Assembly (NCBI RefSeq): GCF_900491935.1
Contig: NZ_UEXK01000004.1
Coordinates: forward strand, 2,598,562 to 2,662,561
Origin: Klenkia terrae
Lineage (GTDB): Bacteria > Actinomycetota > Actinomycetes > Mycobacteriales > Geodermatophilaceae
DNA length: 64,000 nucleotides
Direction of reading: 5' to 3'
The notes beneath the pieces were generated by a model. It saw only the letters and a list, made by a program, of their open reading frames with translations, did no database searches and was not told the DNA's origin. Every line of letters begins with the position of its first letter. Within the stretch, counting starts at the first letter, position 1. Below, in pieces: positions 1-37,768 of the stretch. The translations under genes and the position numbers were made by a program.

Positions 1-15
1 CGACCCAGGTCTGAC

Positions 16-18997: not shown

Positions 18998-19018
18998 CCT
19001 CAGGGCTGCAGGACCCCT

Positions 19019-19060: not shown

Positions 19061-19209
19061 GTTTGCTACCAGGCAACAGCTGGGTTGCGCGATTGCGACA
19101 AGCCCGCGCCCAGTTGTGCGAAGGATGCAATAGGACCCAGCAACAGCTCCTCGCAGACTTCATCTTGCCGCCAGCAACTGGCGGAGTCGCGAACCTCGAG
19201 GAGTGCAGC

Positions 19210-19506
19210 ATGATCCGGCACGTTTTCATGTGGCAGGTCGCCGAAGGCAACGACCCCGATGAGGTCATCAGCCTGCTCAACACGCTGAAGGGCATGTCCA
19301 GCATCCGCAGCTGGGAGCTGGGCAAGCACACCGGCGACCCGGGCGAAAACGGGACGCCCTGGGATGGCGTGCTGATCAACGACTTCGACGATTGGGCCGG
19401 TCTCGAGGAGTACTCGGTCGACCCCTTCCACGCCGAGGTCGTCGGCAAGCTACTGCCCAAGCTCGCCGCCCGAGCGGTCGTCGACTTCGAGCGAGAGACC
19501 CGATGA
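19210..19506 (+). CDS. Dabb-like small alpha/beta-barrel protein
   Basis: The 98-residue protein begins IRHVFMWQVAEG and matches the stress-responsive A/B barrel (Dabb) fold, a dimeric ferredoxin-like barrel also used by cofactor-free monooxygenases and cyclases. GAGGAG lies five bases before the ATG. It is the first gene of a five-gene, translationally coupled unit with the cyclase-family hydrolase, the dihydroxypyridine hydroxylase, a CoxG-like protein and the omega-amidase. That position makes it a candidate for a step in the opening of trihydroxypyridine, but no catalytic residue can be named. Confidence 0.7.
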   Translation: MIRHVFMWQVAEGNDPDEVISLLNTLKGMSSIRSWELGKHTGDPGENGTPWDGVLINDFDDWAGLEEYSVDPFHAEVVGKLLPKLAARAVVDFERETR

Positions 19507-21646: not shown

Positions 21647-21688
21647 GCCTGCTGTGTCCCGACCCCAGACCAGAGATGAGCGTTGACA

Positions 21689-22402
21689 ATGCAGTTGACC
21701 AATGAGTTCGACGTGTCCGTGCCGGTAGATGAGGCCTGGCGGCTGCTCTCGGACCTAGAGAAGGTCGGGCCCTGCCTGCCCGGTGCCTCCATCACCGGAC
21801 GCGATGGCGATGACTACCTCGGCCAGGCCAAGATCAAGGTTGGTCCGATCACCGCCAACTACAAGGGCACTGCCCGATTCCTTGAGCTCGACGAGGGCGA
21901 GTACCGCGCTGTGCTGAGCGCGAAGGGCCGAGAAGCTCGCGGAGGTGGTGACGCGCAGGCCCTGGTCACTGCGACCCTGCTGGACAAGGGGGACGTAACT
22001 CACGTCACGGTGATCACCGACCTCAACCTGTCGGGCAAGATTGCGCAGTTCGGGCGCGGCGTCATCACCGACGTCAGCGCCGCTCTGCTCAAGACATTCG
22101 CCACCCGCCTGGAAGCTATGGTGCAGCAGGACCAGACCGGCGATCAGGACGCGACGGCGACCACGCCGCCAGCGACCGCTACCGGCGGGCTGCCCTCGGG
22201 CGAGGGTAAGCCGCAACTGGTGACGTCGTCTGTGCCCACCGAGGTGCCCCACGCAGCACCCGTGGCAGACGAGGACGACGCACTGGCCATCCTCCCGCTC
22301 GCACGCAGCATCGCGCTGAGCAAGCTGCAGCAGCCGGTCCCGTTGTTCGCGGTCGTACTCGGCGCCGCCATCGCATTCCTCTTGGGGAGGCGAAGGGCTT
22401 GA
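21689..22402 (+). CDS. CoxG-like SRPBCC protein with C-terminal membrane anchor
   Basis: The 237-residue protein has an SRPBCC/CoxG domain (residues about 1-145; the LSDLEKVGPCLPGA segment is typical). A low-complexity Thr/Ala/Pro linker follows, and a C-terminal hydrophobic helix ends in Arg residues (FAVVLGAAIAFLLGRRRA). CoxG tethers CO dehydrogenase to the membrane and links it to quinones. By analogy this protein may bring one or both molybdenum hydroxylases of the cluster to the membrane. The ATG at 21689 is preferred to an in-frame TTG at 21683. Its stop overlaps the next start. Confidence 0.8.
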   Translation: MQLTNEFDVSVPVDEAWRLLSDLEKVGPCLPGASITGRDGDDYLGQAKIKVGPITANYKGTARFLELDEGEYRAVLSAKGREARGGGDAQALVTATLLDKGDVTHVTVITDLNLSGKIAQFGRGVITDVSAALLKTFATRLEAMVQQDQTGDQDATATTPPATATGGLPSGEGKPQLVTSSVPTEVPHAAPVADEDDALAILPLARSIALSKLQQPVPLFAVVLGAAIAFLLGRRRA

Positions 22403-23211
22403 GCGGCTCGCCGCCGGCCTCGACCGATATTCGATTATTGCAGGTCGCCTATGGCGATGAGGAACCTCTAGCTCGACGCGTCGAGCGGGTGGCGAATCTA
22501 GTTCGGCAGCAGCAAGGCGCTGATCTGGTGGTGTTGCCCGAGCTGTGGGCTCACGGCGGCTTCTCCTATCAGTCATGGCAGGAGGAGGCTGAGCCGCTGA
22601 CGGGACCAACAATCTCCGCGCTGCGCGAGGCGGCCCGTGACGCACAGGTGGTTCTCCACGGCGGATCCGTAATCGAACGCCCAGCTGACTCGAGTGCCCT
22701 GTACAACACCGCTGTAGTGATCGACCGCCACGGCGAGATCACAGCGACATACCGCAAAATGCACCGGTTCGGCTTCAGCGAGGGGGAGCCTCAGCTGCTC
22801 ACCGCGGGGGACCAGGTAGCCACCGTGGAGCTTGACCTGGCGGGTCGGTCGGTGCCAACCGGATTGGCTACCTGCTACGACCTCCGGTTCCCCGAACTAT
22901 TCCGCATGCTGACCTACAACGGAATGCAGGTGCTGTTCCTTGTCGCGGCGTGGCCCAAAGCGCGCGTCGACCACTGGCGGGTCCTCGCGCAGGCACGGGC
23001 AGTGGAAAACCAAGTGGTTGTCCTGGCGTGCAATACCGCCGGCACACACGCCGGGGTCACGATGGGCGGACACAGCATGATCGTCGATGCCCAAGGTCGT
23101 GTGCTGGCCGAAGCCGGCGACACCGAGGAGGTCCTCAGCATGGTCTTAGACCTCGGCGGAGTCGACACTGCACGCGCGAGCTTCCCCGTGCTACTCGACC
23201 GCCGGTTCTAA
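22399..23211 (+). CDS. nit: omega-amidase-like carbon-nitrogen hydrolase
   Basis: The 270-residue protein is a nitrilase-superfamily amidase with the catalytic triad Glu48 (VLPELW), Lys120 (TYRKMHRF) and Cys159 (ATCYDLRFPELFR). Length is typical of Nit2/omega-amidase enzymes. The pAO1 homologue hydrolyses alpha-ketoglutaramate to 2-oxoglutarate and ammonia, the last step of the pyridine branch. A TTG start at 22399 overlaps the stop of the CoxG-like gene. The position at the end of the ring-degradation operon fits that reaction well. Confidence 0.85.
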   Translation: MSGSPPASTDIRLLQVAYGDEEPLARRVERVANLVRQQQGADLVVLPELWAHGGFSYQSWQEEAEPLTGPTISALREAARDAQVVLHGGSVIERPADSSALYNTAVVIDRHGEITATYRKMHRFGFSEGEPQLLTAGDQVATVELDLAGRSVPTGLATCYDLRFPELFRMLTYNGMQVLFLVAAWPKARVDHWRVLAQARAVENQVVVLACNTAGTHAGVTMGGHSMIVDAQGRVLAEAGDTEEVLSMVLDLGGVDTARASFPVLLDRRF

Positions 23212-23504
23212 TCACGGCAGCCACGACCCCGGGGCCGGCGGTGCACGCACGACCCCGGCGCCGGGTAGTCCGATCACTCACTGACACCGCACGAGCCGAG
23301 CGCCGCCAACAACCACGCCTGCAACCCCCAGGCAGGTAGGGGCACTTCAGGCCAACGGCCACCGCAACCCTCAGCCGTTTACGGATTCCGGGTGATGCGG
23401 GTCACCAACGTCTGTCATCTGAACGTCGATAGCTGTGTTGCCGGATTTACTGTCGGATTTCCGGGCCCGACGGACACGCGTTGCCGCCCACTGGAGGTGT
23501 GAGA

Positions 23505-24359
23505 GTGAAGTCCCCCGTATTTGCCTATGCCGCGCCGAACACCGTGGCTGAGGCATGCAGCCTGCTCGCCGATGACGAGGACGCGAAGCTGCTCGCAGGC
23601 GGGCAGAGCCTCGTACCCCTGCTCGCATTGCGTCTTGCCGCACCGACGACCCTGGTCGACCTGCGGCTAGTGCCCGCCCTGACAGGTATCACCCACGACC
23701 AGGGCGTTCTCCGGCTCGGGGCCATGACGACCCATAGATCCATCGAGCGCTCCCCGCTGGTTCAAGATGTAGCGCCGGCGATCGCCGAGGCCGCCGCGTT
23801 GATCGCCCATCCCCAGGTTCGGACCCGCGGCACGATCGGCGGCGCAGTGGCCCATGCCGATGCGGCAGCCGAGTGGCCCGCAGTCCTGCTCGCCATGGAC
23901 GGCCACGTCGAGGTCACCGGCACCGGAGGTAGCCGGTCCATCTCCGCCGGCGACCTCTTCATGGGCCCATTCATGACCTCCCTGGAACCGGATGAGGTCA
24001 TCACCTCGGTGTCACTGCCCATCGACGGACGCGAGATCTGGGTGGATGAGCACCAGCGTCGCCACGGTGACTACGGACTGTCCATCCTGGCGATGACCTA
24101 CCAGCTGTCAGATGGGCTTATCACCGATGTCCGACTCGCTGTCGCAGGGGCCACCGGCAGCGTCACCCGTGCCCCCGAAGCCGAGGCAGCACTGGAAGGA
24201 CGTGCCCCCGCCGACAGCAACGACGCGATCACTGCTCTGGCAGCTGAGCTGTCCTACACCTCGGACATCCACGGATCAGCCGACTACCGGCGAGACATCA
24301 CCACCACATTGTTCCAGCGCGCCCTGCGGGCCGCGGGGGAGAGGTCCGGTCAGGCATGA
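23505..24359 (+). CDS. ndhM: FAD-binding middle subunit, probable nicotine dehydrogenase
   Basis: The 284-residue protein repeats the flavin motifs AGGQSLVPLLALRLA and TIGGAVAHADAAAE of the xanthine-dehydrogenase FAD subunit. GTG 23505 has GGAGG seven bases upstream, and an upstream extension to 23481 is less likely. It opens a contiguous M-S-L operon in which every gene overlaps the next by four bases. It is related to but clearly diverged from the subunit at 17622. Assignment to nicotine dehydrogenase rests on the contiguous gene order, as in pAO1. Confidence 0.83.
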   Translation: MKSPVFAYAAPNTVAEACSLLADDEDAKLLAGGQSLVPLLALRLAAPTTLVDLRLVPALTGITHDQGVLRLGAMTTHRSIERSPLVQDVAPAIAEAAALIAHPQVRTRGTIGGAVAHADAAAEWPAVLLAMDGHVEVTGTGGSRSISAGDLFMGPFMTSLEPDEVITSVSLPIDGREIWVDEHQRRHGDYGLSILAMTYQLSDGLITDVRLAVAGATGSVTRAPEAEAALEGRAPADSNDAITALAAELSYTSDIHGSADYRRDITTTLFQRALRAAGERSGQA

Positions 24360-24838
24360 CGCAACCAGCCGAGCACGTCTCAGTCCAGGTCGAGGTCAAC
24401 GGGCGTCGTTATCAGCGCAGCGTCATGGCACGCCTGACGCTGTCGGATTTCCTGCGTGACGAGCTGGGGCTCACCGGCACCAAGGTCGGGTGCGAGCACG
24501 GCGTGTGCGGAGCCTGCACGATCCTCATCGACGACGAACCGGCTCGCTCCTGCCTGATGCTCACCGTCCAAGCCGACGGCAAGAAGATCCGCACGGTGGA
24601 AAGCCTGGCGAGCGGGCGGGAGATGAGTCCCCTGCAAGCGTGCTTTCAAAAGCACCATGCCTTGCAGTGCGGTTTCTGCACAGCGGGCTTCCTCATGAGC
24701 GCAACAGCGCTGCTGGAGGAAGGCCAGCCGACGCGGGAGGACATCGTTGAGACGCTGTCCGGCCACTACTGCCGGTGCACCGGCTACTCCCCGATCATCG
24801 ATGCGGTCGAAGAGGCCGCGGCCAAGGAGCCGTCATGA
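24356..24838 (+). CDS. ndhS: [2Fe-2S] small subunit, probable nicotine dehydrogenase
   Basis: The 160-residue protein carries the plant-type cluster site (CEHGVCGAC, then ARSC) and the helical site (CGFCTAGF, CRCTGY). It is the electron relay between molybdenum and FAD subunits. The ATG overlaps the M-gene stop and its own stop overlaps the large-subunit start. Confidence 0.86.
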   Translation: MTQPAEHVSVQVEVNGRRYQRSVMARLTLSDFLRDELGLTGTKVGCEHGVCGACTILIDDEPARSCLMLTVQADGKKIRTVESLASGREMSPLQACFQKHHALQCGFCTAGFLMSATALLEEGQPTREDIVETLSGHYCRCTGYSPIIDAVEEAAAKEPS

Positions 24839-27195
24839 GCTTCCCGCACTCTCAGTCGCCCTCTATCGCCGCCCGGAGCATCGGCGCCCGCGTCCCCCGA
24901 GGGGACGATCCGCGACTGCTGACTGGTCGCGGGCAGTACTTGGCCGACATCGTTCTGCCCGGTGAACTGCACGCCTGCTTCGTTCGTAGCTCTGCTGCTC
25001 ATGCCCGCATCACGCGGGTCACCACCGACGAGGCCCGTGCGCTCGACGGGGTCGTCGCGGTATGGACCGGAGAAGATGCCGCGAAGTTCTGCGAAGGCAT
25101 CGTCGGGGAGCTGGAAGTCGAAGGATGTTTCGCCACCACGATGCCGTTGCTCGCCCGAGACATCGTCCGCTACGTGGGGGAACCCGTCGCAGTGGTCGTC
25201 GCGGAAAGCAGGTACGTGGCCGAGGACGGTTGCGACCTCGTCGATGTGGACTACGAGCCGCTTGAGCCGGTTCTGCACCCGCGGTCGGCGTTGGAAGGCG
25301 GCCCGTCCGCCAACGAGGAGCTGCCCGACAACGTCGCCCTCCGGGGAGGCAAGGTCCTCGGTGATGTCGAAGGCGCATTCAACGACGCCGCACGCGTCAT
25401 CGAAGCGACCTTCCACAGCGGTCGCCTGTCGGCTGGGCCCATGGAAACCCGTGGGGTCATCGCCAGCTACGACTGGACCAGTCGCCGGCTGCGCCTGTGG
25501 ACCGGCTCGCAGATGCCCCACTACATCAAGTACTGCCTCACCGCGTACCTCGGCTTCCCGGAGAACGAGTGCGAGGTGCTGACACCTGACACCGGCGGTG
25601 GGTTCGGACAGAAGGCCCACATCTTCCCGGAGGAGATGCTGCTGCCGCTGCTGGCCCGCGAGCTTGACCGGCCGGTGAAGTGGGTCGAGGACCGTCGCGA
25701 AAACCTGATGACTGCTACCCACGCCCACGAGCAGTTCATCGACATCGCCTACGCCTTCGACTCCGACGCACGGGCCACAGGTGTGCGAATTCGCGCAACC
25801 GGCGACGGGGGGGCCTACCACCAGCCACCGTGGTCGATGGGCGTCGAGCCATGGTGCACGGCGATGGTCACCCCCACAGGGGTGTACGACATCCCCGCAG
25901 CCGATCTCACCTACGAAGCCGCCGCCACGAACAAGACCCCCATCGGGGCCTACCGCGGTGTGGGATACATGGCCGGCACCCTCGTCCGTGAATGCCTCAT
26001 GGACGACGCAGCCAGGGCGTTCAAGCTCTCCCCCTTCGACATCCGCCGGCGCAGTGTGGTGCGCGAGTTCCCGTGGACCAACCCGCAGGGAATCGTGTAC
26101 GACGAAGGCAGCTGGCTGCAGACCATCGACGAACTCGAGCGCATGGTCGACTACCCGGCCTTCCTCGAGCGTCAGGCTGCGCTCCGCGCCGAGGGCCGCT
26201 TCATCGGGCTCGGATTGAGCGTCTTCGTCGAAAGCAGCGGCGAAAGCACGGCGATGGGCAAGGCCCACGACCTCGGGGGCATCTACCACGACACCGCCAC
26301 AGTGAAGATGGAGCCCAACGGCAGCGTGACCGTCACCATCGGGCTTACCACCCAAGGTCAGGGTCACCGCACGACGATGGCCCAGGTCGTTGCCGACTCG
26401 CTGGGTGTGCCACTTGAAGCCATCACCGTTCGAGCCGCTGAATCCACAACCTACGGCTGGGGGAGCGGCACGGTGGGCAGTCGCGGTGCGGTCATCGCCG
26501 GTGGAGCAGTCCTACGAGCATCCAACGTCATCCGCACCAAGCTCGTTGCGCTAGCGGCGAGCATGCTCGAGGCGGACCCCGCCGACATCGACCTGGTCGA
26601 CGGTGCGGCCGTGGTGCTGGGCGTGCCCGGGTCCTCGGTGTCCATCATCGACCTGGCCACCGCGGTCTACTTCGACCAGAGCGCCTGGCCCGCGGACTTC
26701 GACCCCACCCTGGAAGCCACCCTCGCCTACGACCCTGCGCGGCCGATCTTCTCCAACGGCGGCCACGCCATGATCGTCGAGGTCGCGCCAGAGACCGGTT
26801 TTGTGACTGTGGAGAAGGTTTTCTCGGTCGAGGACTGTGGCACGGTAATCAACCCAGACATCGTCGAGGGCCAGATACGCGGGGGCGTCGTCCAGGGCAT
26901 CGGGGCGGCGCTGCTCGAGCGCCTTGTCTATGACGATTCCGGTCAGCTGGTCACCACCACCCTGCTGGACTACCACATGCCGAGCATGGACTTCTCGCCC
27001 CCTTTCGAGATCCACCACCTGGAGACGCCCTCCTCCCATACGCCCGGCGGCATCAAGGGCATGGGAGAGTCCGGCCTGATCGCGGCACCCGCCGCCGTAC
27101 TCAACGCCGTCAATGACGCCCTGTCCCACACCGGCACGGTGCTGCACGACATCCCCATCACCCCCGAGCAGGTGCTTCGCGCCTTGCGCGGATGA
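24835..27195 (+). CDS. ndhL: molybdopterin-binding large subunit, probable nicotine dehydrogenase
   Basis: The 786-residue protein is a xanthine-oxidase-family molybdenum subunit with TGGGFGQK (near 252), AYRGVGY (near 372) and the catalytic glutamate in KGMGESG (near 740). The CO-dehydrogenase AYXCSFR loop is absent. It hydroxylates an N-heteroaromatic ring next to nitrogen using water. As part of the contiguous M-S-L set it is assigned to the first step, nicotine to 6-hydroxynicotine; exchange of roles with the set at 11880/17622 cannot be ruled out without alignment. ATG 24835 is chosen from the ATGA overlap; the longer in-frame extension overlaps the small subunit. Confidence 0.72.
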   Translation: MSFPHSQSPSIAARSIGARVPRGDDPRLLTGRGQYLADIVLPGELHACFVRSSAAHARITRVTTDEARALDGVVAVWTGEDAAKFCEGIVGELEVEGCFATTMPLLARDIVRYVGEPVAVVVAESRYVAEDGCDLVDVDYEPLEPVLHPRSALEGGPSANEELPDNVALRGGKVLGDVEGAFNDAARVIEATFHSGRLSAGPMETRGVIASYDWTSRRLRLWTGSQMPHYIKYCLTAYLGFPENECEVLTPDTGGGFGQKAHIFPEEMLLPLLARELDRPVKWVEDRRENLMTATHAHEQFIDIAYAFDSDARATGVRIRATGDGGAYHQPPWSMGVEPWCTAMVTPTGVYDIPAADLTYEAAATNKTPIGAYRGVGYMAGTLVRECLMDDAARAFKLSPFDIRRRSVVREFPWTNPQGIVYDEGSWLQTIDELERMVDYPAFLERQAALRAEGRFIGLGLSVFVESSGESTAMGKAHDLGGIYHDTATVKMEPNGSVTVTIGLTTQGQGHRTTMAQVVADSLGVPLEAITVRAAESTTYGWGSGTVGSRGAVIAGGAVLRASNVIRTKLVALAASMLEADPADIDLVDGAAVVLGVPGSSVSIIDLATAVYFDQSAWPADFDPTLEATLAYDPARPIFSNGGHAMIVEVAPETGFVTVEKVFSVEDCGTVINPDIVEGQIRGGVVQGIGAALLERLVYDDSGQLVTTTLLDYHMPSMDFSPPFEIHHLETPSSHTPGGIKGMGESGLIAAPAAVLNAVNDALSHTGTVLHDIPITPEQVLRALRG

Positions 27196-27304
27196 CCGTT
27201 GGTCATGATGGATCGCGCGGGGGAGCTCACCCACCGGTCGTCGCACAAGCAGCTCGCAGCCATGGACACTGTGCGCACCTGATGATCGGTGAGGGCGGCC
27301 TCCG

Positions 27305-28102
27305 ATGACATCGCACACCGCGGTGCTCGGCTCAGTCGCCCGGCTGGATATCGCCACAACCAAAGGGTTCGCGCTCAGTCAGGTACCTGCAGTCCACGTG
27401 GCATCCACCGGCATCGTCGGCAACCGGGAGTTCTTCCTCGTCGACATCGACGAGCGGCTCTACTCGGTCCCCAGAGACCCTGCCTTTCTTGGCTATTGGA
27501 CTTCCTATGACCACTCCAGTGGCGTCTTCTCACTGGGCAGCGGTGACACAACAGAATGCTCGGCCACGGTCCACCACGTGGGGGACGTTCGACCGTTCGA
27601 GTTCGACGAACGCATGGTCGAGGGCCGGTGGGCGCCGGGACCGTGGGATGAGGTGCTCTCAGACGTCGCCGGACGACACGTGCGCCTAGTGCACTGCGCC
27701 GTTGCAGGTGGTGGACATGACGTCCACCCGGTGACGCTGCAGTCCACAGCCTCCCTGGCTGCACTCGGCACCGAACTAAACGGACATCCACTGGACCGTC
27801 GCCGGTTCCGGCTCAACCTCACCCTCGACCTAGGCTCTGTCCCGTTCATTGAGGACAGCTGGGACGGCATCTTGGCCGTGGGGTCCTGTCGGCTTCGACT
27901 GCGCGGCGGGGTGCCCCGCTGCATAGCTGTGGAATACCGGCCAGAGGACGGTCATCGCGGCCTGCTCGTGCAGCAGCGCATCAGCAGACTGCGCGGGCCG
28001 ATGATCAGCGACTGGGGCCCGGGGGTGCTGTACGGGACCTACGCCGATGTCCTGGACCCCGGCCCCATAGCCGTCGGCGACCCGGTCGCCGTGCAGACCT
28101 AA
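27305..28102 (+). CDS. MOSC-domain protein
   Basis: The 265-residue protein has an N-terminal MOSC beta-barrel region (residues about 10-65) and a MOSC domain with the conserved cysteine in GVPRCIAVEYRP (near 204). MOSC proteins bind molybdenum cofactor or carry sulfur for it. Lying 109 bases after the nicotine dehydrogenase large subunit, it may help sulfurate or insert the cofactor of the two molybdenum hydroxylases. Other MOSC proteins reduce N-hydroxylated compounds, which is an alternative. Confidence 0.8.
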   Translation: MTSHTAVLGSVARLDIATTKGFALSQVPAVHVASTGIVGNREFFLVDIDERLYSVPRDPAFLGYWTSYDHSSGVFSLGSGDTTECSATVHHVGDVRPFEFDERMVEGRWAPGPWDEVLSDVAGRHVRLVHCAVAGGGHDVHPVTLQSTASLAALGTELNGHPLDRRRFRLNLTLDLGSVPFIEDSWDGILAVGSCRLRLRGGVPRCIAVEYRPEDGHRGLLVQQRISRLRGPMISDWGPGVLYGTYADVLDPGPIAVGDPVAVQT

Positions 28103-28245
28103 GAGCAGACGGCGCCACCAACATCACCACCTCGTCGGGAACGGTAGCCGGCAGCCAGGCTAGCTATTCGCCACCGCACGAAGGCCACCGCACCGCATCA
28201 ACCAAGAACTCACGACAGGTAACGGTGCCACCAAGGGGGACACGC

Positions 28246-29910
28246 ATGACCTTCGTCATCACCCAGGCTTGCTGTGACGACGCCTCTTGTGTCCCGGTGT
28301 GCCCCGTGCAATGCATCCACCCACGCCCGGGGGACCCAGAGTTCACCACCACCGAGCAGCTCTACATCGACCCGAGCACATGCATCGATTGCGGGAATTG
28401 CGCCTTTGCCTGCCCCGTGGAGGCCATCGTCCACGAAGCTGACCTTTCACCGTCGCAGGCGGAATTCCGGGCCATCAACGCCGACTACTTCACCGCTCAC
28501 CCACTGAAGGACGTGCAACCGCTTCCGATTGAGCGGCGCCGGCTGCCACAGCCACAACAGAACCTCAAAGTTGCGATCGTGGGAGCGGGACCATCGGCGC
28601 TCTACGCCGCAGGGCAGCTCAGTGAGATCCCGGGCGTCTCCGTCACCATTGTTGAAAAGACACCCATGGCGCACGGGCTGGTCCGCACCGGCGTCGCACC
28701 CGACCACGACCAGACCAAGCTCATCGGCGACACCTTCGATCGAGTCCTCCGCCGGCCGAATGTCACCAGCTATCTCAACGTTGAAGTCGGGCGAGACATC
28801 TCCGTCGAGGAACTGCAGCGTCACCACCACGCCGTCATCTGGGCTGCAGGAGCATCAGAGGATCGCCGACTTGGCATACCGGGGGAGGGTCTTGCGGGGT
28901 CGGTGACCGCACGGGAATTCATCTCTTGGTACAACGGCCACCCCGATTACGCCGAACACGAGTTCAACCTGTCCGGGCCCACAGCCGTGGTTATCGGAAA
29001 CGGCAACGTCGCGCTCGACGCAGCACGCCTCCTCACCCAGCCGACCACTCTGCTGTCAAAGACATCAATATCGGACCGGGCGCTCGCGTCAATGCGGACC
29101 AGTGGCATCGAAGAAGTCATAGTCATCGGACGGAGAGGGCCCGCCGACGCCGCCTACAGCACCGCAGAGCTGCTCGCCTTGTCCCATCTTCCTCAGGTCG
29201 ATCTAGTCACCAACCCTGCAGATTTTTCTGACCCAGAATACAAACCCACCACGTCCCGAATCGCGCAGGCGGCCGACTTCGCGCGCCGGCGCGCAATCCT
29301 GCTGCAGGCAACCCGGCGCACCGGCACCGCCCCCCGGCGGATCGTGATGCGATACCGGCTCACCCCCACCCGGCTGATCGGCGAGCGGGCAGTCTCAGAG
29401 ATCGTGCTGTCCCACCCCGACGGCACCTCACAGTCCATCAAGACGTCCCTTGTCATCAGCGCCATAGGCTTCCGCGGACGCGCAGTGCCCGGCATGCCCT
29501 TCGACCACGCCGCCGGCGTCATCCCCCACGACCGTGGGCGAGTCGTCGATGCCAAAACGGGTCTCCCCTTGCCGGGGCTTTATTGCACAGGCTGGATCAA
29601 ACGAGGCCCAACCGGTGTCATCGGCACCAACCGCTCCGACGCCGCCGAGACCATCGCCTCCCTGCTCAGCGATATCGACGGGCCCGGCCTTCCGACCCCC
29701 GTCCAAGACCCAGCACAACTGGCGCAGCTGCTCAGGCAACGTCAGCCCGACCTGATCACCGCCGAAGGATGGCGGCGCATCAATGAGGCAGAACGAAGTG
29801 CTGGACGAGTTGCCGGGCGCCCCCGGGTCAAGCTGCTCACCTCAGCGGACTTCCTTCGGGTAGCAGCGCAGCACGACGAGACCTCGGCTGCTGTGCTCAC
29901 CGATGAGTGA
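28246..29910 (+). CDS. ferredoxin-NADP+ reductase with fused ferredoxin domain
   Basis: The 554-residue protein starts with a bacterial ferredoxin domain (cysteines in CCDDASCVPVCPVQC and CIDCGNCAFACPVEAI, residues about 7-65). An adrenodoxin-reductase-like flavoprotein follows, with an FAD site VGAGPSALYAAGQL (near 108) and an NADP site VIGNGNVALDAARLL (near 250). This FprB-type fusion moves electrons between NAD(P)H and iron-sulfur partners. The ATG at 28246 has AAGGGGGA upstream. As the last gene of the nicotine cluster it might exchange electrons with the molybdenum hydroxylases, or simply be a general redox protein. Confidence 0.87.
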   Translation: MTFVITQACCDDASCVPVCPVQCIHPRPGDPEFTTTEQLYIDPSTCIDCGNCAFACPVEAIVHEADLSPSQAEFRAINADYFTAHPLKDVQPLPIERRRLPQPQQNLKVAIVGAGPSALYAAGQLSEIPGVSVTIVEKTPMAHGLVRTGVAPDHDQTKLIGDTFDRVLRRPNVTSYLNVEVGRDISVEELQRHHHAVIWAAGASEDRRLGIPGEGLAGSVTAREFISWYNGHPDYAEHEFNLSGPTAVVIGNGNVALDAARLLTQPTTLLSKTSISDRALASMRTSGIEEVIVIGRRGPADAAYSTAELLALSHLPQVDLVTNPADFSDPEYKPTTSRIAQAADFARRRAILLQATRRTGTAPRRIVMRYRLTPTRLIGERAVSEIVLSHPDGTSQSIKTSLVISAIGFRGRAVPGMPFDHAAGVIPHDRGRVVDAKTGLPLPGLYCTGWIKRGPTGVIGTNRSDAAETIASLLSDIDGPGLPTPVQDPAQLAQLLRQRQPDLITAEGWRRINEAERSAGRVAGRPRVKLLTSADFLRVAAQHDETSAAVLTDE

Positions 29911-31053
29911 CGGGGACGGGGCACCTGCCCCAAGAACCGCACCCAGGCATTCCCCCGAGAAAGCAGCTGTGACCTGGTGGCGTCGATGGCCACGCCGCCC
30001 AAGCGCTGCTGATCCACCGCCCCCGATCCAGGCACCCGCCAAAGCCGACGCAACAAGTGCATGGCTCACCGCGTGGGGTGCCGCAGCCGACACGATGTTT
30101 CTCACCGCACCTATCAGCGAACCTGGCGGCCGGTCAGCACCACCTGCCCCGACATCGTGACCCCCCACGAGATTCGTCGTCAGATATGAACAACGCCCAC
30201 CCGCAGCCGGAATGGAGACGATCGGCTCGACGAGCCGGCTCGTCCCGCCCCAGCGAGCTCCGCTGGAATCCGGCAAATTGTGCTCCAAGGTTAGCCATTT
30301 CGGATAACACCGTTCACCGCTGGTAAGCCGCAGCCATAGACCTAGACGCAGCAGGGCGCCTGTGGTTTCTGTCACCTTCCTGCGCAGTGGACGTCGCATA
30401 ATCCGAAACCGTTCGAAGGTGACTCGACCGGCAATTGTCGACATGGCAACCCGGTTCGGTCCATGAATGTGATCGGCGCCAAGACGGCCGTCGATTATGG
30501 GCTCCTGAGCTGCATGTTTGGCCGAACCGTTAATCGCTGGACTGCTCGTCGATTAAGTGTCAGGGGACGCCTGTTTGTCGTAGACGGCGCGGTCCAGTGA
30601 ACCCGAGAAACGGTCTGTTTCGGTGCATCTCGGCTCAACCATGACTCGCTGGTTGCCGTTAATGGTGGGGTAGGCCAAAAGCGCTGATCGCGAATGGAGT
30701 GGCAAGCGTGTCGCCAACCCGAGCGTCGTCGAAGACAACCCGCCGTTCAATCCCACGAAGGGTTCTCTACTGAGTGTGAGGTCCTGGCCAGCGGCACCCG
30801 GCCCGCCAGCAAGTATTGGCCGACAGTCGGAACAGTCATGCGACCCCACAGAGCGTCTCAAGGCGCTGTAAGGGATGCACCTTAACCGTCGCCTGCTTCC
30901 GGACGCGCTGCACGCCCCAGGTGGCATTCATCGCAGATGGATCTGTGCCGCCGGTGACCGAGCAGAACCTCACATCGCAGCCCTCGCACCGGGTGGCCAC
31001 ACGCGACCCGTCCCGCTCCCCTTCACCCCTACGCGCCCCAAAGGATCTCCGTC
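29911..31053. other. 1.1-kb region without recognisable genes
   Basis: All frames here are short and carry no known motif. Base composition is more AT-rich around 30300-30700 than in the neighbouring genes, and several TTAATC/GATTA-like words occur. The chemoreceptor promoter should lie near the right end. It may contain decayed sequence left by element rearrangement. Confidence 0.4.
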
Positions 31054-31538
31054 ATGTCAGACCGCACTGTTTCCCGATCCCGGAGGGTCATGGGTGTGCG
31101 CACGCAGGTCCTCGCCGTTGGAGCTCTCGGCATGGCTGCGGCGCTGGCCGTCGGGGCCGCGGCCTTCCAGGGGCTGGCTGCCTCGGAACGCAGCCTGAAC
31201 GTAGTCAGCGAGCTCCAGGAGGCCCGGCTGATCGCACAGCAGATCCGCACCGCCAACGGTGACATCGGCGCCTGGCAGACCGCCTATGTCTGGGACAGGC
31301 GTCGACTGGGCCTGGCCGCAGCCGTTGCGCCGGATAACGTCACACGGGCCGGGTTCTTGGTCGCCGGACAAGACCTCCAGCCGCTGCTGGACAGCATGCC
31401 GAGGGCTCTGCTCACCGCCTCCGAGAAGGACACGTTCGACCAGTTGAACCAGTCATGGATGGACTTCTTCGCCATCGATGACCAGATCGTGGACAACTAC
31501 GCCCTCGACACCCCAGCTGGGCTAGCCGCCGGCGACGC

Positions 31539-31544
31539 CCTAGT
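31539..31544. repeat. left target-site duplication CCTAGT
   Basis: CCTAGT directly precedes the left end of the IS481-family element and is repeated at 32674-32679. Confidence 0.9.
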
Positions 31545-32673
31545 TGTTGCGGTGCATGAGGTTGTTGACAGCGGGGCGGTAGGGGCCGGGACGTAGGACG
31601 GGTCCCCGGCGGCAGGATGTGAAGCGCTGACCACACGTCCTGACCGACCCGGAGACCCGTCTTGTCCCACGCTAACGCGCCCTTGACCCCTGCTGGCCGG
31701 CTGCGGTTGATCGACCGGTGCGCTACCCGTCCGATCGCGCACATCGCTGCTGAGGCCGGTGTGTCCCGGCAGTGCCTGTCCAAGTGGAAGAACCGCTACG
31801 ACGCCCTTGGCGAGGTCGGGCTGCTGGACCGCTCCAGCGCCCCGCACGCCAGCCCCACCCAGACCGAAGGCGAGGTGGTAGCCCGCATCGAGGCGCTGCG
31901 GCGGGAGAAGAAGTGGTCCGCGCGGTTGATCACCGCCGAGCTCAACGGCGACGGTGTGGACATCAGCGCCGCCACCGTCGGACGGTGGCTGGCCCGACTG
32001 GGCATCAACCGCCGCCGCTTCCTGGACCCCGACGGGGACAACAACCGCGCCCCAGGCAAGATCACCGCCCGCTACCCCGGGCACATGATCCACGTCGATG
32101 TGAAGAAGGTCGGCCGCATCCCCGACGGCGGCGGATGGCGCGCCCACGGCCGCGGCAGCGACGGTGACCGCGCCGCCGCACGCGCCAAGACCGCCGCGGC
32201 CAAGACCGGCCAGAAGGCCGGCTACGTCTACCTGCACTCGGCCATCGACGGGTTCTCCCGACTGGCCTACACCGAACCCCTGGCCAACGAGACCGCCAAG
32301 ACCGCCATCGCGTTCTTCGCCCGCGCCCGCGCGTTCTTCCGCGCCCACGGCATCGGCCGCATCACCCGGGTCATCACCGACAACGGGTCCTGCTACCGCG
32401 CCGGGGCGTTCACCAGGTCACTGTTCGACGCCAGCCGCCACCAGCGGACCCGGCCGTTCACGCCCAAGCACAACGGCAAGGTCGAGCGCTACCAGCGGAT
32501 CCTGGCCGAGGAGCTGCTCTACGCCCGCACCTGGACATCCGAAGCCCAACGAGCCCAGGCGATCGCGGTCTGGACCGTGCACTACAACTACCACCGACCA
32601 CACACCGCCGCCGGGAACCGACCACCCGCCTCACGCCTCCACGCCGGCGTCACCAACGTCATGACGAGCAACA
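31545..32673 (+). mobile_element. IS481-family insertion sequence, 1129 bp
   Basis: The ends are imperfect inverted repeats of about 25 bases beginning TGTTGC. The left end reads TGTTGC....CATGA.GTTG.TGAC, and the reverse complement of the right end agrees at 19 of the first 25 positions. Both flanks show CCTAGT. One transposase gene fills most of the element. Confidence 0.92.
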
Positions 32674-32678
32674 CCTAG
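31662..32678 (+). CDS. IS481-family transposase
   Basis: The 338-residue protein has an N-terminal helix-turn-helix ([20 protein letters not shown]) and an rve-type DDE catalytic core: first Asp in MIHVDVKK, second in [10 protein letters not shown], and Glu in [11 protein letters not shown]. It appears intact, so the element may still be mobile. The stop codon TAG (32676-32678) lies outside the right inverted repeat, within the duplicated target CCTAGT, so the flanking site supplies the terminator of the gene. Confidence 0.9.
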
Positions 32679-32679
32679 T
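32674..32679. repeat. right target-site duplication CCTAGT
   Basis: Second copy of the duplication found at 31539-31544; it also supplies the transposase stop codon. Confidence 0.9.
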
Positions 32680-33816
32680 ACTGGGACCAACCCAGGACGT
32701 CTTCTACGCCGTGGCCGAACAGACCGCAGCACTTAACGACTCGTTGGCGACACGGGTCGAGCAGGCTCAAAATGTCGCCGACTCCCAGCGCTCGCGCAGC
32801 TTGGTCCTAGTCACAGGAGTCCTCCTGCTGGCCCTAGCGGCTGTCTTGACCCTGGCCTTGCGTACCGCACGGCGGCTGCTGCGTCAGCTGCAGACGGTCC
32901 GTGATGCTGCCGTTGCTCTGGCGGCCGGGGACCTCACGGTGTGCACCGAGGTGACCTCACGCGATGAGGTCGGACAGACTGCGGCCGCCCTCAATGGCGC
33001 ACTTGGTTCTCTGCGGAAGGTGATGACCGCAGTCGCTGCCTCGGCTGAGGCAGTGGCTGCCTCCAGCGAGGAACTGTCGGCATCCTCGGCCCAGATCTCG
33101 GCCTCTGCGGAGGAAACGAGCGTGCAATCCACGGTGGTCACCGGCGCCGCCGACGAGGTGTCCCGCTCGGTGGCGACAGTCGCCGCGGGTGCGGAGCAGA
33201 TGTCGGCCTCGATCCGGGAGATCGCGCAGAACGCCAACGAGGCCGCCCGCGTCGCCGCCGGCGCGGTGACCGAGGCCGAGGCAACCAACCAGACAATCCA
33301 GAAACTGGGGCTGTCCTCCAAGGAGATCGGCGACGTCGTGAAGGTCATCACGAGCATCGCCGAGCAGACCAACCTGTTGGCGCTCAACGCCACCATCGAG
33401 GCCGCTCGGGCCGGTGAGGCCGGCAAGGGCTTCGCAGTCGTGGCCAACGAGGTCAAGGAGCTGGCCCAGGAGACCGCCCGCGCCACCGAGGACATCGCCC
33501 GCCGGGTGGAGACGATCCAGGCAGACACCGGTGGGGCCGTGGCCGCGATCGGCCGCATCGGCACGGTGATCGGGCAGATCAACGACTACCAGTTGACCAT
33601 CGCCTCGGCGGTGGAGGAGCAGACCGCCACCACTAACGAGATGTCGCGCAGCGTGGCGGAGGCCGCGGGCGGCACGACGGAGATCGCCGCCAACATCACC
33701 GGGGTTTCAACTGCTGCCGGCACCACTACGCAGATCCTCAGTCAAAGCCGAGTCGCCGTCGATGAACTTGCCCGCATGGCCGCCGACCTGCGCACAACTG
33801 TCAGCACCTTCACCTA

Positions 33817-33855
33817 CTGACCAGGCAGGAGGCCAAATGCCTCCTGCCTGGTCAG
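33817..33855 (+). terminator. 17-bp terminator hairpin after the chemoreceptor
   Basis: Arms 33817-33833 and 33839-33855 are perfectly complementary around a CAAAT loop. The chemoreceptor stop codon lies inside the left arm. Confidence 0.8.
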
Positions 33856-34315
33856 CTGGACGGCTTGACGACCCGAGGCCTTTGGTCAAGCCGCCGACGA
33901 TCTGCCAGTCCACAACTACACACCGCGCCTCGGTGTATGCAGCTGAGCAATCGGTGCAGATGAGGGGTCCTGCGGCGCTGGTGACTGGCTGTCGGGAAGA
34001 TGCGGCGGTGTCCCCAGCGGCGTGAGGAGCACGACGCGCACGTCACCGGCGGCCGATGCACCTGGTGTCGAGCCGGAGAACCTGCCCGTCAGCTCGAGCT
34101 TTCAGGACGATCACGGGGCGTGTCGTCCTCGCCGTCCTCGCCAGCACCATCGCTCAGGACCTCCGCGGTATTTGCCCCATCATCAGCGGGCCCGCCGCTG
34201 CCATGAGAGCGACCATCATCGGCGTCGTCGATCGGAACCAGGCTGTGCGTCATGTCTTCATCTCCATGTCTGCTGTCGTGCGCGTCGAGAGCGCTGATTC
34301 GCGCCCCGGTTACTG
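33856..34315. other. 460-bp region without recognisable genes
   Basis: Short frames only, none with a family motif. It lies between the chemoreceptor terminator and a thioesterase remnant and looks like decayed island DNA. Confidence 0.4.
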
Positions 34316-34577
34316 CTATCTCAGTTCGGCGCTCCTAGCACTCCATGCGACCTCCATCGAGGTCCGCCCAGTGCGATTCACACTTGCTTCGAATGTGACC
34401 AGCTCCCCGCATGAATCGGCTCCGGGAAGACACCCTGGTCCACTGACAGTGTGACCGCGTAATTTCTGGCGTACCGGGTTGCGCAGGTGTTGCGACCTGG
34501 TCGAGGTACTTCAGCAAGGTGCCGCCATGGACGTCGCCGGCGAAATTTGACATGTCCGGGGTCATGAGAATGGTCAT
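34316..34577 (-). pseudogene. frameshifted, truncated acyl-CoA thioesterase (hotdog fold)
   Basis: Reading from ATG 34577 the first frame gives TPDMSNFAGDVHGGTLLKYL, the active-site start of YciA-like thioesterases. A frameshift then moves the family sequence to a second frame (CATRYARNYAVTLSVDQGVF), and a further shift to a third frame (GELVTFEASVNRTGRTSMEV). The match ends there, so the C-terminal third is missing. At least two indels make this a non-functional remnant. Confidence 0.75.
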
Positions 34578-35062
34578 GGACGGTCGATGACGGTCGTCGC
34601 CCATCGCACGCTCCTCGCGTCCACGCGGCGGGTTCGGGAACCGACGACCTTCGTCGGCTGCGGAGCTGGCGACGGTGTGCCGCGCAGGGCCGCCTACCTG
34701 GCTTGTTAGGCCCTGCGTGGGCAGCGCAACCACAGTAAGGACGAGGCGGTCGGTGGCCTTTGCAGTGGAACGCTAGCGACAGAACGCCGGCCAGGCCTGT
34801 GCCGCATCCGACCAATTCAGGCGTGAATTGCCCGGAATCGGGCACGCCGTCGTGCACGGGGGCAGGCAGGCGCGGCTGCGGAGCAGTGCGTCGACGGCAG
34901 GACCGACACCCGGGCTGATCGTGACGCCCGAGCTTGCGCCGATGAGACAACCCGGTGCCGTTTTAGGCGGACAACGTCAAAGTCCGGCTTTGCATCACGT
35001 CCTACGTTCAACCTGGCCAAAGTGTTGGCTGTGAGGGCAACGGAGAGGGACTGAGGGCGTTG
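34578..35062. other. 485-bp region without recognisable genes
   Basis: No frame here has recognisable coding character. The right end should contain the promoter of the SMR gene; GAGAGGGACTGAGGG lies shortly before its start. Confidence 0.4.
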
Positions 35063-35395
35063 ATGGTGACCTACGGTCTTCTCGCGCTGGCCATCACGGT
35101 CGAGATCGTGGCCACCTTGTTCCTGAGAGTGACCGAGGGCTTCACGCGCCTGCTGCCCAGCCTATTTGTGGTCGTGGGCTATGCGTTGTCCTTCTTTCTG
35201 CTCTCTCACGTGCTGAAACGGGGGCTGGATGTTGCCGTCGTCTACGCCCTGTGGTCGGCAGTGGCGATTGTTGCCATCTCAGTCATCGGAGCCGTCTTCC
35301 TGAACGAACGCCTGACGGCCATCCAGATCCTGGGAATGGCGCTCATCGTCATCGGAGTACTCGTGCTGAAGATGGGCGCCAGCACCGCGACCTGA
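35063..35395 (+). CDS. small multidrug resistance (SMR) family efflux protein
   Basis: The 110-residue protein has four hydrophobic helices and the membrane-embedded glutamate in the first (AITVEIVATLFL), as in EmrE/QacE. SMR proteins work as antiparallel dimers that export cationic compounds in exchange for protons. pAO1 uses an SMR pair in nicotine catabolism to export a side-chain product, so a similar role here is possible, but only one gene is present and it stands 5 kb from the catabolic genes. A TTG at 35060 is an alternative start. Confidence 0.85.
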   Translation: MVTYGLLALAITVEIVATLFLRVTEGFTRLLPSLFVVVGYALSFFLLSHVLKRGLDVAVVYALWSAVAIVAISVIGAVFLNERLTAIQILGMALIVIGVLVLKMGASTAT

Positions 35396-35990
35396 CCCGA
35401 CCCAGCCGGTTTCCTCGGCCCACCAGCAGGCTGTCTCCTGCCCCGGGTGAGGGCAGCTACGGGGTCCGCTTCGTGCTGATGAGGCCCATGCAGAGCTCGC
35501 CCCCGACGAGGCAGTTAGCGGGGCCCGTGTCCACGGTGCACTGCACACCGCTACCAACAGCGGCTACAGGGCTCGGGTGGACCGCCCCGCCATGTGACGG
35601 CTGCTGAGGATCTTGACGGGCGCGCCTACCTAGACGAGGGGTCGAAGGCGGACACCTTGAACCCGGTGACCAGGTGACGGGTCTGCTGCACCGACTGAAC
35701 CCCGGGCATGGTTGACCTGGGCGGTCTCGTCGAGGCGGGCAGGTGGAGCCGGCCGGGCGCCCGTCGCCGCTGATGTCGGGTCAGGACCGATCAGCGACGA
35801 TGCTGTCACGGGTGTCCCGGGCGCTATCGGGCCAGTCGGAGGTTGCCCGAGAGTCCCGCGAGCTCGCTCAGGAACTTGTCACCAGACCTGACCGGACACC
35901 TTCGACCAAGCCTGTGAGTGCATAGCGCACCGATGCAAGGGCCAGACCGGAATCGTGGGCGCCGAGTTCGCAGCCGTGGCCTTGGCTATT
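35396..35990. other. 595-bp region without recognisable genes
   Basis: The only frame of note (35743-35925, 60 residues) has no family likeness or good ribosome-binding site and is not called. The region ends at the left repeat of the IS3-family element. Confidence 0.4.
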
Positions 35991-36023
35991 AGGGACTGCT
36001 GCACGGATAGGTGACAGTTCGGG

Positions 36024-36923
36024 TTAAGCGGCCTGAGCCGCCGGTGTGTGGTCGATCATCTCGCATTCGATGGGTGTGAGGCGGCCGAGGGCGGCTTGCC
36101 GCCGTCGGCGGTGGTAGGTGCGCTCGATCCAGGTGACGATCGCGATCCGCAGCTGCTGGCGGGTGGCCCAGCGCTGGCGGTCCAGGACGTTCTTCTGCAG
36201 CAGCGCGAAGAAGGACTCCATCGCCGCGTTGTCCCCGGCAGCGCCCACCCGGCCCATCGATCCGACCAGCCCGTGCGCGCCCAGAGCGTGAACGTAGCGC
36301 CGAGATCGGAACTGCGACCCGCGGTCGGAGTGGACGATGCAGCCGGCGACGTCGGCACCTGCAGTCGCGCGCCGGGCGACCGCGGACTCCAGCGCCGTGA
36401 CGGCCAGCCGGGACTGCATCCGGGCGTCCATGGCGTAGCCGACGATGCGGTTGGAGTGCACGTCCTTGATCGCGCAGAGGTAGAGCTTGCCCTCGGCGGT
36501 GGGGTGCTCGGTGATGTCGGTCAGCCACAGCCTGTTCGGCTGGTCGGCGGTGAACACGCGCTGGACGCGGTCGTCGTGCACCGGCGGTCCGGGACGGCCG
36601 GCCTTGCCGCGGCGGGGCTTGCCGAACGCTGACCACCAGCTCATCGACGAGCACAGCGCCCAGGCCGTGCGCTCGGCCATCGGCTGCCCGGCCGTGGCGG
36701 CCTCGGTGGCTAGGTACCGGTAGCCGAACTCGGGGTCATCGCGGTGGGCGTCGTACAGGGCGTTGGCCCGGTAGGCCGACTCGAGCTCAGCGGCGCTGAT
36801 GGGGTCGGCCAACCACCGGTAGTAGGGCTGGCGGGCGATCTTCAGGACCCGGCACGTCACCGCGACCGGCACCCGCACACGGGCACCGACAGCGGCCAAC
36901 TCACGGACGAGCGGGTACATCAT
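36024..36923 (-). CDS. IS3-family transposase OrfB
   Basis: The 299-residue protein has the rve integrase core with DDE residues in WLTDITEH, CIVHSDRGSQF and DNAAMESFF. Its ATG overlaps the OrfA stop by four bases next to an A-rich run (GGGAAAATGATG), fitting coupled translation or programmed frameshifting as in other IS3 elements. Sequence appears intact. Confidence 0.9.
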   Translation of the reverse strand: MMYPLVRELAAVGARVRVPVAVTCRVLKIARQPYYRWLADPISAAELESAYRANALYDAHRDDPEFGYRYLATEAATAGQPMAERTAWALCSSMSWWSAFGKPRRGKAGRPGPPVHDDRVQRVFTADQPNRLWLTDITEHPTAEGKLYLCAIKDVHSNRIVGYAMDARMQSRLAVTALESAVARRATAGADVAGCIVHSDRGSQFRSRRYVHALGAHGLVGSMGRVGAAGDNAAMESFFALLQKNVLDRQRWATRQQLRIAIVTWIERTYHRRRRQAALGRLTPIECEMIDHTPAAQAA

Positions 36924-37213
36924 TTTCCCGGCAAATTCGCCTGTGACAGGTAGGCCGCCGCCCGGCGCAGCACCTCGTTCTCCTGCTCCAGCAGCCGGAT
37001 CCGCCGGCGCGCATCACGCAGCTCGGTGTTCTCCGCCGTGGTGCTGCCCGGCTTGACGCCGTCCTCGACATCGGCGGCCTTCAGCCAGTTCGTCAGGCAG
37101 GACTCGCTGATCCCGAAGTCGGCCGCGATCTGCTTGAGGTGGGTGCCGGGCTCACGGCTGCGGGCGACGTTCACCACGTCGTCCCGGAACTCCTTGGGGT
37201 AGGGCTTGGGCAC
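36920..37213 (-). CDS. IS3-family transposase OrfA (helix-turn-helix)
   Basis: The 97-residue protein (from GTG 37213, with GGAAGG nine bases upstream) has the IS3 OrfA helix-turn-helix (HLKQIAADFGISESCLTNWL) and a leucine-zipper-like end (RRIRLLEQENEVLRRAAAYL). It binds the element ends and joins with OrfB to make active transposase. Confidence 0.88.
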   Translation of the reverse strand: MPKPYPKEFRDDVVNVARSREPGTHLKQIAADFGISESCLTNWLKAADVEDGVKPGSTTAENTELRDARRRIRLLEQENEVLRRAAAYLSQANLPGK

Positions 37214-37283
37214 GATCAACATCCTTCCAGCGGCACCTCTCGGCACCACAGATCAGATGTCACCTACTCGTGCAGCAGTCCCT

Positions 37284-37695
37284 CACCCCCCTGCGGACGC
37301 AACGAGCGGTGGTCCGCGTACTGGCCCGTCGTCCCTAGCGGGGAGTGCTATCGCTGTCGCCCCCATTGGGGTGACGTACGCGAGGAGGGTGCTGGGTGAC
37401 GGCGGTTTGTGTTCCGCGCTGCAGCTTCTCGAGCACCGCGGGTCGCGAGCTTGGCGTGATTGCTCCGAGCTTGGCCAACGGCTCCGAGTCGTGCCCCCGC
37501 CGCGAGGATGCGTCACCCCATCCTCAAGGACGTATGTGCTGGTCAAGAGCTGTTCAACCGCACGTGCTTCGTGCCCGCTACGTGCCCGTAGCGACGGCGA
37601 ATGTGGGTCATGAGCGGTGATGGGCGGTGACTCTCGTGACGCTCTGAGCTGCGGTTATGCGATTTCGTGCAGGTCGCGTCAGAGGCACCAGCATT
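37284..37695. other. 412-bp region before the att site
   Basis: No gene is supported and no integrase frame is found on either strand. A small hairpin, CGCTAC/GTAGCG, lies near 37576-37593. The region is the extreme end of the inferred island. Confidence 0.45.
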
Positions 37696-37750
37696 CTTGA
37701 AAACCGCTAGGGGTTAGCGCTCCTCGAGGGTTCGAATCCCTCGCCCTCCG
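37696..37750 (+). repeat. att site: 3' fragment of tRNA-Ser(UGA)
   Basis: The sequence runs from the anticodon loop CTTGAAA through the 3' anticodon arm and a pairing variable arm (AGGGG with CTCCT). It continues through the T arm GAGGGTTCGAATCCCTC to the acceptor strand GCCCTCC and discriminator G. The bases before CTTGAAA do not pair with the 3' anticodon arm and no D arm or 5' acceptor strand exists, so this is not a gene. Tyrosine integrases often cross over in tRNA anticodon loops and leave such a copy at the far end of an island. Confidence 0.85.
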
Positions 37751-37768
37751 CTCGCCGGTGCCGCCCGT

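Follow-up and report, generated by a model that had tools for sequence, protein, structure and literature searches.

The window, a 64,000-nucleotide stretch of the Klenkia terrae chromosome, opens among genes predicted to serve nicotine degradation, leaves at position 37753 a 42,052-bp span closed at both ends by the same direct repeat, and continues into DNA of host-like composition (Table 1). The right-hand copy of the repeat, attR, corresponds to the 3′ part of a tRNA-Ser(UGA) gene, with the anticodon beginning at tRNA position 35 and the discriminator base at window 37751. Its left-hand partner, found by searching the host assembly, is 100% identical over 59 bp (E 7.4e-24) and sits 4.3 kb left of the window within an intact tRNA-Ser(UGA) called by ARAGORN, which finds no complete tRNA in the 64-kb window. 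A tRNA 3′-end direct repeat, identical over 59 bp, therefore stands at both ends, and the tRNA is intact at one of them. GC content is 74.2% over the 9 kb preceding the tRNA on the left, drops to 66.3% within the element and stands at 74.4–74.9% to its right. The first-pass annotation had placed a tRNA-Ser(UGA) 3′ fragment at 37696–37750; the fragment is present, each end having been set one base off (the tRNA part runs from 37695 to the discriminator base at 37751, the repeat to 37753). That annotation also expected a GC shift at the fragment, a matching intact tRNA-Ser(UGA) to the left, an integrase beyond the left window edge and nicotine genes inside the island, and all of these were found. 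Site-specific integration into the tRNA-Ser gene, which it had proposed, is supported by the repeat, the intact tRNA, the adjoining integrase and the GC shift.

Table 1. Features of the element and its surroundings. Coordinates without prefix are window positions; L003 denotes the locus stretch that extends to the left, and C4 the host contig.
Feature	Coordinates	Strand	Remarks
Left copy of 59-bp direct repeat	C4:2594204-2594262		within intact tRNA-Ser(UGA)
Intact tRNA-Ser(UGA)	L003:9174-9261		ARAGORN
Element part left of window	L003:9205-13562		4,358 bp; tRNA 3′ end, integrase, HTH, 213-aa protein, truncated parA, RHH
Left 21-bp motif	C4:2594328-2594348		67 bp inside tRNA end
Tyrosine integrase, 387 aa	L003:9316-10479	-	~50 bp inside tRNA end; Phage_integrase PF00589 5.6e-18, SAM-like and central domains
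Small HTH_17 protein, then 213-aa protein without family	left of window, inward of integrase		
parA-like frame	L003:11626-12450		93.6% over 264 aa to ParA of G002 contig C9
In-window part of 42,052-bp element	1..37753	.	repeat-to-repeat span
Nicotine block	1..30040, start at window -183	.	93.7% nucleotide identity over 30.3 kb to K. brasiliensis C7
FAD-dependent amine-oxidase-like protein	16..1416	-	
PmfR-type regulator	1904..3319	-	NCBIfam 3e-156, below its cut-off; 46% to pAO1 PmfR
APC-type permease	7097..8560	+	36% to a pAO1 permease
2,6-Dihydroxypseudooxynicotine hydrolase	9197..10273	+	PDB 2jbw 3.8e-137; 59% to pAO1
KdhC-like large subunit, ketone (6-hydroxypseudooxynicotine) dehydrogenase	11880..14309	-	62% to pAO1
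6-Hydroxy-L-nicotine oxidase	14700..16031, start uncertain	+	PDB 3k7t 1.5e-168; 59% to pAO1
KdhA- and KdhB-like subunits	17622..18997	+	48% and 60% to pAO1
2,6-Dihydroxypyridine 3-monooxygenase DhpH	20465..21646, start uncertain	+	PDB 2vou 4.8e-130; 58% to pAO1
Carbon-nitrogen hydrolase	22426..23211, start uncertain	+	46% to pAO1 amidase
NdhA-, NdhB-, NdhC-like nicotine dehydrogenase subunits	23505..27195	+	48%, 61%, 63% to pAO1
Segment absent from K. brasiliensis copy	30041..33432	.	nucleotide comparison
IS481-family transposase	31761-32678		within K. brasiliensis-absent segment
Methyl-accepting-chemotaxis-type protein	32711-33820		mostly within K. brasiliensis-absent segment
SMR-family efflux protein	35063..35395	+	common to K. 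brasiliensis (94%) and Blastococcus (74%)
IS3-family insertion sequence	35991..37283	-	26-bp inverted repeats (92%); right edge of nicotine block
Right end of element	37558..37752	+	77–81% conserved at second tRNA-fragment copies of G002, G006, G007
Right 21-bp motif CGTGCCCGCTACGTGCCCGTA, putative integrase arm site	37570..37590	+	104 bp inside repeat
attR, right copy of 59-bp direct repeat	37695..37753	+	tRNA-Ser(UGA) positions 32–88 plus 2 bp
Second non-core segment	37754..47833	.	GC 74.4%, host-like; absent from relatives' tRNA-to-helicase stretches read
Conserved Suv3-like helicase gene	47838-49766		core synteny with relatives resumes at ~window 47.83 kb

The integrase gene is transcribed towards the tRNA, and an alignment of seven sequences shows its R, H-x-x-R, H and Y positions to be conserved, columns that we take to be the catalytic ones; the small HTH_17 protein inward of it belongs to a type that is often an excisionase. 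Matches to the integrase at E <= 1e-60 occur in 38 of the 112 Geodermatophilaceae genomes, the host's own included. The integrase group is tied to the tRNA-Ser(UGA) site: an ARAGORN check of 23 of the loci returned placed this tRNA beside the integrase at all 15 loci with at least 68% identity (the host's and 14 others) and at none of the eight examined with 59% or less, and a BLAST search with the att sequence gave no match at the remaining loci, those of the 40–46% class. We conclude with high confidence that the 42,052-bp span is an integrative element lodged in a chromosomal tRNA-Ser(UGA) gene of Klenkia, within the gene's 3′ half, and most likely inserted by its own tyrosine integrase. 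A circular form would most likely have recombined with the tRNA gene through that integrase, within the 59 bp that the two share. Since a tRNA 3′ half travels with the element, this copy would have restored the tRNA at the left, and the displaced host 3′ half would have become the right-hand fragment.

The two ends are also paired by a 21-bp motif, CGTGCCCGCT[A/G]CGTGCCCGTA. The host genome has two exact copies of the 21-mer, one inside each element end; in 20 simulated first-order Markov sequences, a mean of 0.05 places in 117 kb matched with three or fewer mismatches. Across the family the exact 21-mer was found at 38 places in 25 of 112 genomes, and a reversed control pattern in 0 of 112. 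Thirty of the 38 places were examined: 14 lie by an intact tRNA-Ser(UGA), nine by a 3′ fragment and seven by neither; the motif thus also occurs away from this site. Its spacing is fixed within narrow limits, ~66–69 bp on the tRNA side and 104–107 bp on the fragment side. The arm sites of phage-type integrases are direct motifs that come in pairs, each at a set distance from the crossover, and by analogy the paired 21-bp motifs are probably arm sites of the integrase. The seven loci with an exact 21-mer and no tRNA-Ser nearby (L197, L201, L207, L211, L213, L215 and L216) may represent relatives of the integrase that use the motif at other sites, or remnants. Among the eight other Klenkia genomes, G007 alone has the exact 21-mer; G002 and G004 each hold a single copy that differs from it at one base, and the stretches of G001, G003, G005, G006 and G008 yielded no copy even with three mismatches allowed. 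G006 lacks the exact 21-mer despite having a close integrase.

Outside Klenkia, all ten genomes with close integrases that were searched, from three genera, have the tRNA end with the att sequence. Six of them (G022, G049, G059, G084, G087 and G100) have a second att copy on the same contig, in direct orientation and 9.8–18.6 kb away; in G027, G050 and G052 it lies on another contig, and G060 has one copy. Five of the six same-contig elements carry the exact motif near each end, and in the sixth, G100, the left copy is exact and the right one has a single mismatch. At one locus (L188, G087 C1:340501-359800), three att copies and four 21-bp motifs (three exact, one with a single mismatch) follow one another, and an integrase remnant lies behind the second att; we read this array as two tandem elements at one tRNA-Ser(UGA). 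Several of the sister elements carry relaxase genes. In G022, G049 and G059 the integrase is accompanied by two small HTH-like proteins, as judged by eye, and a TrwC-type relaxase; the relaxase of G084 is shortened; and in the Klenkia genome G006 the integrase is followed by a 1726-aa protein with 68% identity to the K. brasiliensis relaxase. No type IV secretion (T4SS) family was found among the proteins scanned besides the relaxases (three of G022 and five each of G049 and G059, small frames being outside the scan). Between the att copies of the last three elements (L187, L189 and L190) lie TIR, CAP12/Pycsar-type TIR and FRG-domain proteins, and so possibly defence genes. The K. terrae element belongs to a tRNA-Ser(UGA) integrase group that extends across the Geodermatophilaceae, with a MobF relaxase in several members. 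Like canonical integrative and mobilizable elements (IMEs; PMC5704250), the G022, G049 and G059 elements combine an integrase and a relaxase with no T4SS family among the proteins scanned; they differ in that their relaxase is of the MobF type, which according to the available text of that source was present in no canonical IME known by 2017, while the island in the window has no relaxase that we could find. MobF relaxases are discussed on plasmids in the accessible part of PMC8190616.

The island's cargo is, by homology, the pyridine pathway of nicotine degradation. Among 33 protein queries from pAO1, the nicotine dehydrogenase (Ndh), 6-hydroxy-L-nicotine oxidase, ketone dehydrogenase (Kdh), 2,6-dihydroxypseudooxynicotine hydrolase and DhpH all have counterparts in the island at 48–63% identity over 92–100% of their length, and a cyclase-family protein reaches 74%; the five molybdenum-cofactor proteins, the three molybdate-transport proteins and nicotine-blue reductase have no match there. 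The amine-oxidase-like protein at the left window edge might, at a guess, be gamma-N-methylaminobutyrate oxidase, and a host carrying this set of genes would presumably grow on nicotine. Gene starts come from a codon-usage-based caller and may be off, and for some genes longer frames were used in the searches. The family scan took in the element's 34 called genes, 30 with NCBIfam and four with Pfam, uncalled stretches of up to 1.2 kb lying outside it. Among these genes there is no relaxase, coupling protein, T4SS component, FtsK/TraB protein or replication initiator, and no recombinase of the types that frame the pAO1 nic cluster (Tn554-like and others), the only recombination functions being the tRNA-Ser integrase and the IS481 and IS3 transposases.

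Comparison with K. brasiliensis (G001) indicates that the island is a mosaic. Beyond the segment missing from the K. brasiliensis copy, homology resumes at window 33433–34353 and 34522–35838. In K. brasiliensis the nicotine block (C7:67955-100683) interrupts the transfer region of a conjugative element of the MobF/T4SS kind: a TrwC relaxase, TrbL and a coupling protein of the TraG type lie to one side of it, and a T2SSE ATPase lies to the opposite side. No tRNA was found in C7:6001-166000. The same transfer region, lacking the nicotine block, is found on contig C207 of G006 and contig C6 of G008, where two neighbours that stand 37 kb apart in K. brasiliensis are separated by 3.3 and 2.2 kb, respectively. 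The K. terrae chromosome has a more distant relative of this region at C4:661-693 kb. To the left of the block, L003 11704-13376 (window -1858 to -186) is 82% identical to contig C9 of G002, an 81-kb contig that looks plasmid-like by eye and encodes a ParB-type protein (71%) and two transfer proteins (27–29%) related to those of K. brasiliensis. Judged by BLAST ends, this homology stops 3 bp before homology to K. brasiliensis begins, at 13379. The parA frame of the island starts inside the gene and, aligned with the G002 C9 homologue, is missing the N-terminal P-loop part; we therefore rejected the parA/RHH pair as a working partition module and regard the truncated gene, from its alignment, as a recombination scar. 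Beside the K. brasiliensis block are possible last codons of the RHH gene, a weak match (31 of 37 bases, pairwise E 0.008). No clear inverted-repeat pair was found that would make the nicotine block one transposon, either around the IS3 element or at 29900–33500, where the pairs look like background. Nicotine genes ~70–84% identical in DNA, with wider gaps between them, are present in Blastococcus saxobsidens and B. litoris (L083 and L084); a location of the Blastococcus genes (G018 and G034) at tRNA-Ser was rejected, as no tRNA-Ser lies within the stretches scanned.

These junctions argue that the nicotine block has moved separately at least once. On the simplest reading, a plasmid or conjugative element bearing the RHH and nicotine genes would have fused with the tRNA-Ser element, bringing in a plasmid-derived piece (the 5′-truncated parA and the RHH gene) joined to the block; the K. 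brasiliensis block rides on its MobF/T4SS element. The order and direction of these events are our inference. The first-pass view that all DNA to the left of the fragment is one mobile island thus holds for the bounded 42,052-bp element and needs amending in that the element is a mosaic, with a block that appears to have travelled on its own and no transfer genes found. A related account, to which we give even odds, is that the tRNA-Ser element was a landing platform only: a small element integrated, and the nicotine block entered later, in place, by transposition or plasmid recombination. It draws on the presence of the block at 93.7% identity in a quite different K. brasiliensis element, on the occurrence of that T4SS element without the block in G006 and G008, on the plasmid-type homology that stops 3 bp short of K. 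brasiliensis homology, and on the size of the six same-contig sister elements, 9.8–18.6 kb rather than 42 kb. Later entry of the cargo would leave the att evidence for the outer boundary untouched, and no transposase is seen to frame the block on both sides, IS3 standing at the right edge only and the left edge having been inspected by alignment.

The same chromosomal site can be followed in the other Klenkia genomes. The tRNA-Ser region is matched in all eight, at full length in seven and in parts only in G007. The pathway hydrolase, used as a marker at E <= 1e-50, occurs among them only in K. brasiliensis, at another site, and no nicotine genes follow the tRNA in the stretches read (those of G005, G006 and G007 are broken by contig ends). 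One att copy is present in G001, G003 and G008, genomes in which no integrase was found at E <= 1e-60; a second is present in G002, G004, G005, G006 and G007. The first-pass annotation had held that the same fragment in relatives without the nicotine genes would speak against integration. Such copies do exist in G002, G006 and G007; because they share the inner right-end arm of the K. terrae element, we interpret them as belonging to sister elements that carry other cargo, and by this conservation they appear to be right ends. The annotation had also looked to relatives for an empty site: the same tRNA without nicotine genes behind it was found, and the exact unoccupied junction was not, in a search with the right flank of nine Klenkia and 112 family genomes, the host's own included in both. 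The sites of G001, G003 and G008 are not exact empty sites, since their right flank differs. In G003, part of the DNA after the tRNA matches DNA that starts 1.8 kb past the second att copy of G002 (80% over 1.0 kb), which would make it close to an empty site for the G002 element.

Non-core DNA does not stop at attR. The fragment ends the 42,052-bp element, as the first pass had supposed of its island, and DNA outside the conserved core extends as far as ~47.8 kb of the window. In those relatives whose post-tRNA DNA was readable, the sequence that immediately follows attR here does not adjoin tRNA-Ser. It is conceivable, and in our judgement unlikely, that the fragment closes off an older element and that the whole 52 kb forms one island with its right boundary near window 47.8 kb. 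Core synteny resumes only at ~47.83 kb, and 37754–47833 is absent from the tRNA-to-helicase intervals read, as that account would have it; however, the GC content steps from 66% to 74% at the fragment, the 21-bp motif sits just left of 37695, and no further att copy above chance occurs to the right of 37753 up to window 104000 (66 kb). Moreover, the gene at 39459–40508, ~1.8 kb past attR, has 73–78% matches at other chromosomal places in six of the eight other Klenkia, so that the segment looks like host-type DNA (the first gene right of attR has only 66–72% matches elsewhere), and among relatives the distance between the last att copy and the helicase gene varies independently, from ~0.4 kb in G004 to 27 kb in G008. 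The segment's genes include TetR, FAA hydrolase, homogentisate-dioxygenase-like, FAD monooxygenase, metallo-beta-lactamase-fold and PhoX-type members. These comparisons show the 3′ side of this tRNA-Ser(UGA) to be a variable hot spot in Klenkia. Different cargo occupies the interval from the tRNA-Ser to its second copy in other Klenkia: judged by eye, metal-transport-type genes in G002 C7 and TerD-like, tellurium-type genes in G004 C1. In the right-hand core an IS110-family transposase lies at window 58819–59868, and core homology breaks there in G001, G002 and G008.

Phages, too, use tyrosine integrases at tRNA genes, and the element could in principle be a prophage or phage satellite instead of a conjugation-type element; we consider this very improbable, as scans of its 34 called genes with NCBIfam or Pfam turned up no family of phage structure or packaging and sister elements carry TrwC relaxases. 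Partial tRNA copies can arise without integration, but a chance or decayed partial duplication is refuted here for practical purposes by the perfect identity over 59 bp, the integrase beside the other copy, the motif found in the genome only at both ends and the same architecture in sister elements of other genera; the repeat is not the product of chance.

As an integrated element, the nicotine island is of an ordinary tRNA-integrated catabolic type; more unusual are the two vehicles for one pathway and the paired motif. With tRNA-targeted islands of the ICE/IME class it shares an integrase by the intact tRNA, low-GC catabolic cargo and, at the opposite end, a direct repeat of the tRNA's 3′ half, and it differs from them in its mosaic make-up, which includes a plasmid fragment, in the 21-bp motif at both ends and in having no relaxase, coupling protein or T4SS that we found. 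The nic cluster of pAO1 is described in the accessible text of a 2023 survey (PMC10494377) as a putative 49-kb catabolic transposon, flanked by integrases and with Tn554-like recombinases; it occurs on plasmids and chromosomes and, so far as that text goes, has been reported only from Paenarthrobacter, Arthrobacter, Rhodococcus and Nocardioides. The Klenkia island resembles it in the pyridine-pathway genes, in a GC content low for the host and in residence on different replicons, and differs in being a tRNA-Ser element, in that the named enzymes are 46–63% identical and in that the molybdenum-cofactor proteins (five queries) are unmatched. On the genomic island of Agrobacterium tumefaciens S33 (PMC5500553), nicotine genes likewise lie amid partition and conjugation genes; there, however, the pathway is a hybrid one and the host a proteobacterium, and the available portion of the report mentions no tRNA att pair. 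Actinomycete AICEs and T4SS-type ICEs, as treated in the accessible part of PMC3218068, share site-specific integration in actinobacteria, with TrwC-type relaxases among the ICEs, whereas the 34 called genes of the Klenkia island include no FtsK/TraB, replication initiator or T4SS. In the literature searched, short of most subscription journals, we found no published description of this island.

We infer a capacity of the element for excision and for transfer in trans; it has two insertion sequences, its parA is truncated and transfer genes were not found in it, so that it may now be immobile. A wider proposal, which we offer tentatively and hold to be somewhat less probable than its opposite, is that the tRNA-Ser(UGA) elements of the Geodermatophilaceae form a distinct family of integrative elements. 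Its members would share a single group of integrases and, at either end, 21-bp arm sites at a fixed spacing; several would carry a MobF relaxase, none would have its own transfer machinery, and all would freely exchange cargo, drawing it from co-resident MobF/T4SS conjugative elements. The nicotine pathway would in this way change vehicle between species of one genus, and the K. terrae element could be re-mobilised in trans by the related MobF/T4SS system of its host.

The K. terrae locus provides a nicotine island whose two ends are defined by a 59-bp repeat and whose host family lies outside the four genera named in the accessible text of the 2023 nic survey (PMC10494377). The 21-bp motif offers a handle with which one group of integrative elements can be found and delimited across this soil actinobacterial family. 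K. terrae and K. brasiliensis, for their part, form a natural pair with the same pathway in two different mobile elements, and the change of vehicle of a long catabolic pathway thereby becomes testable.
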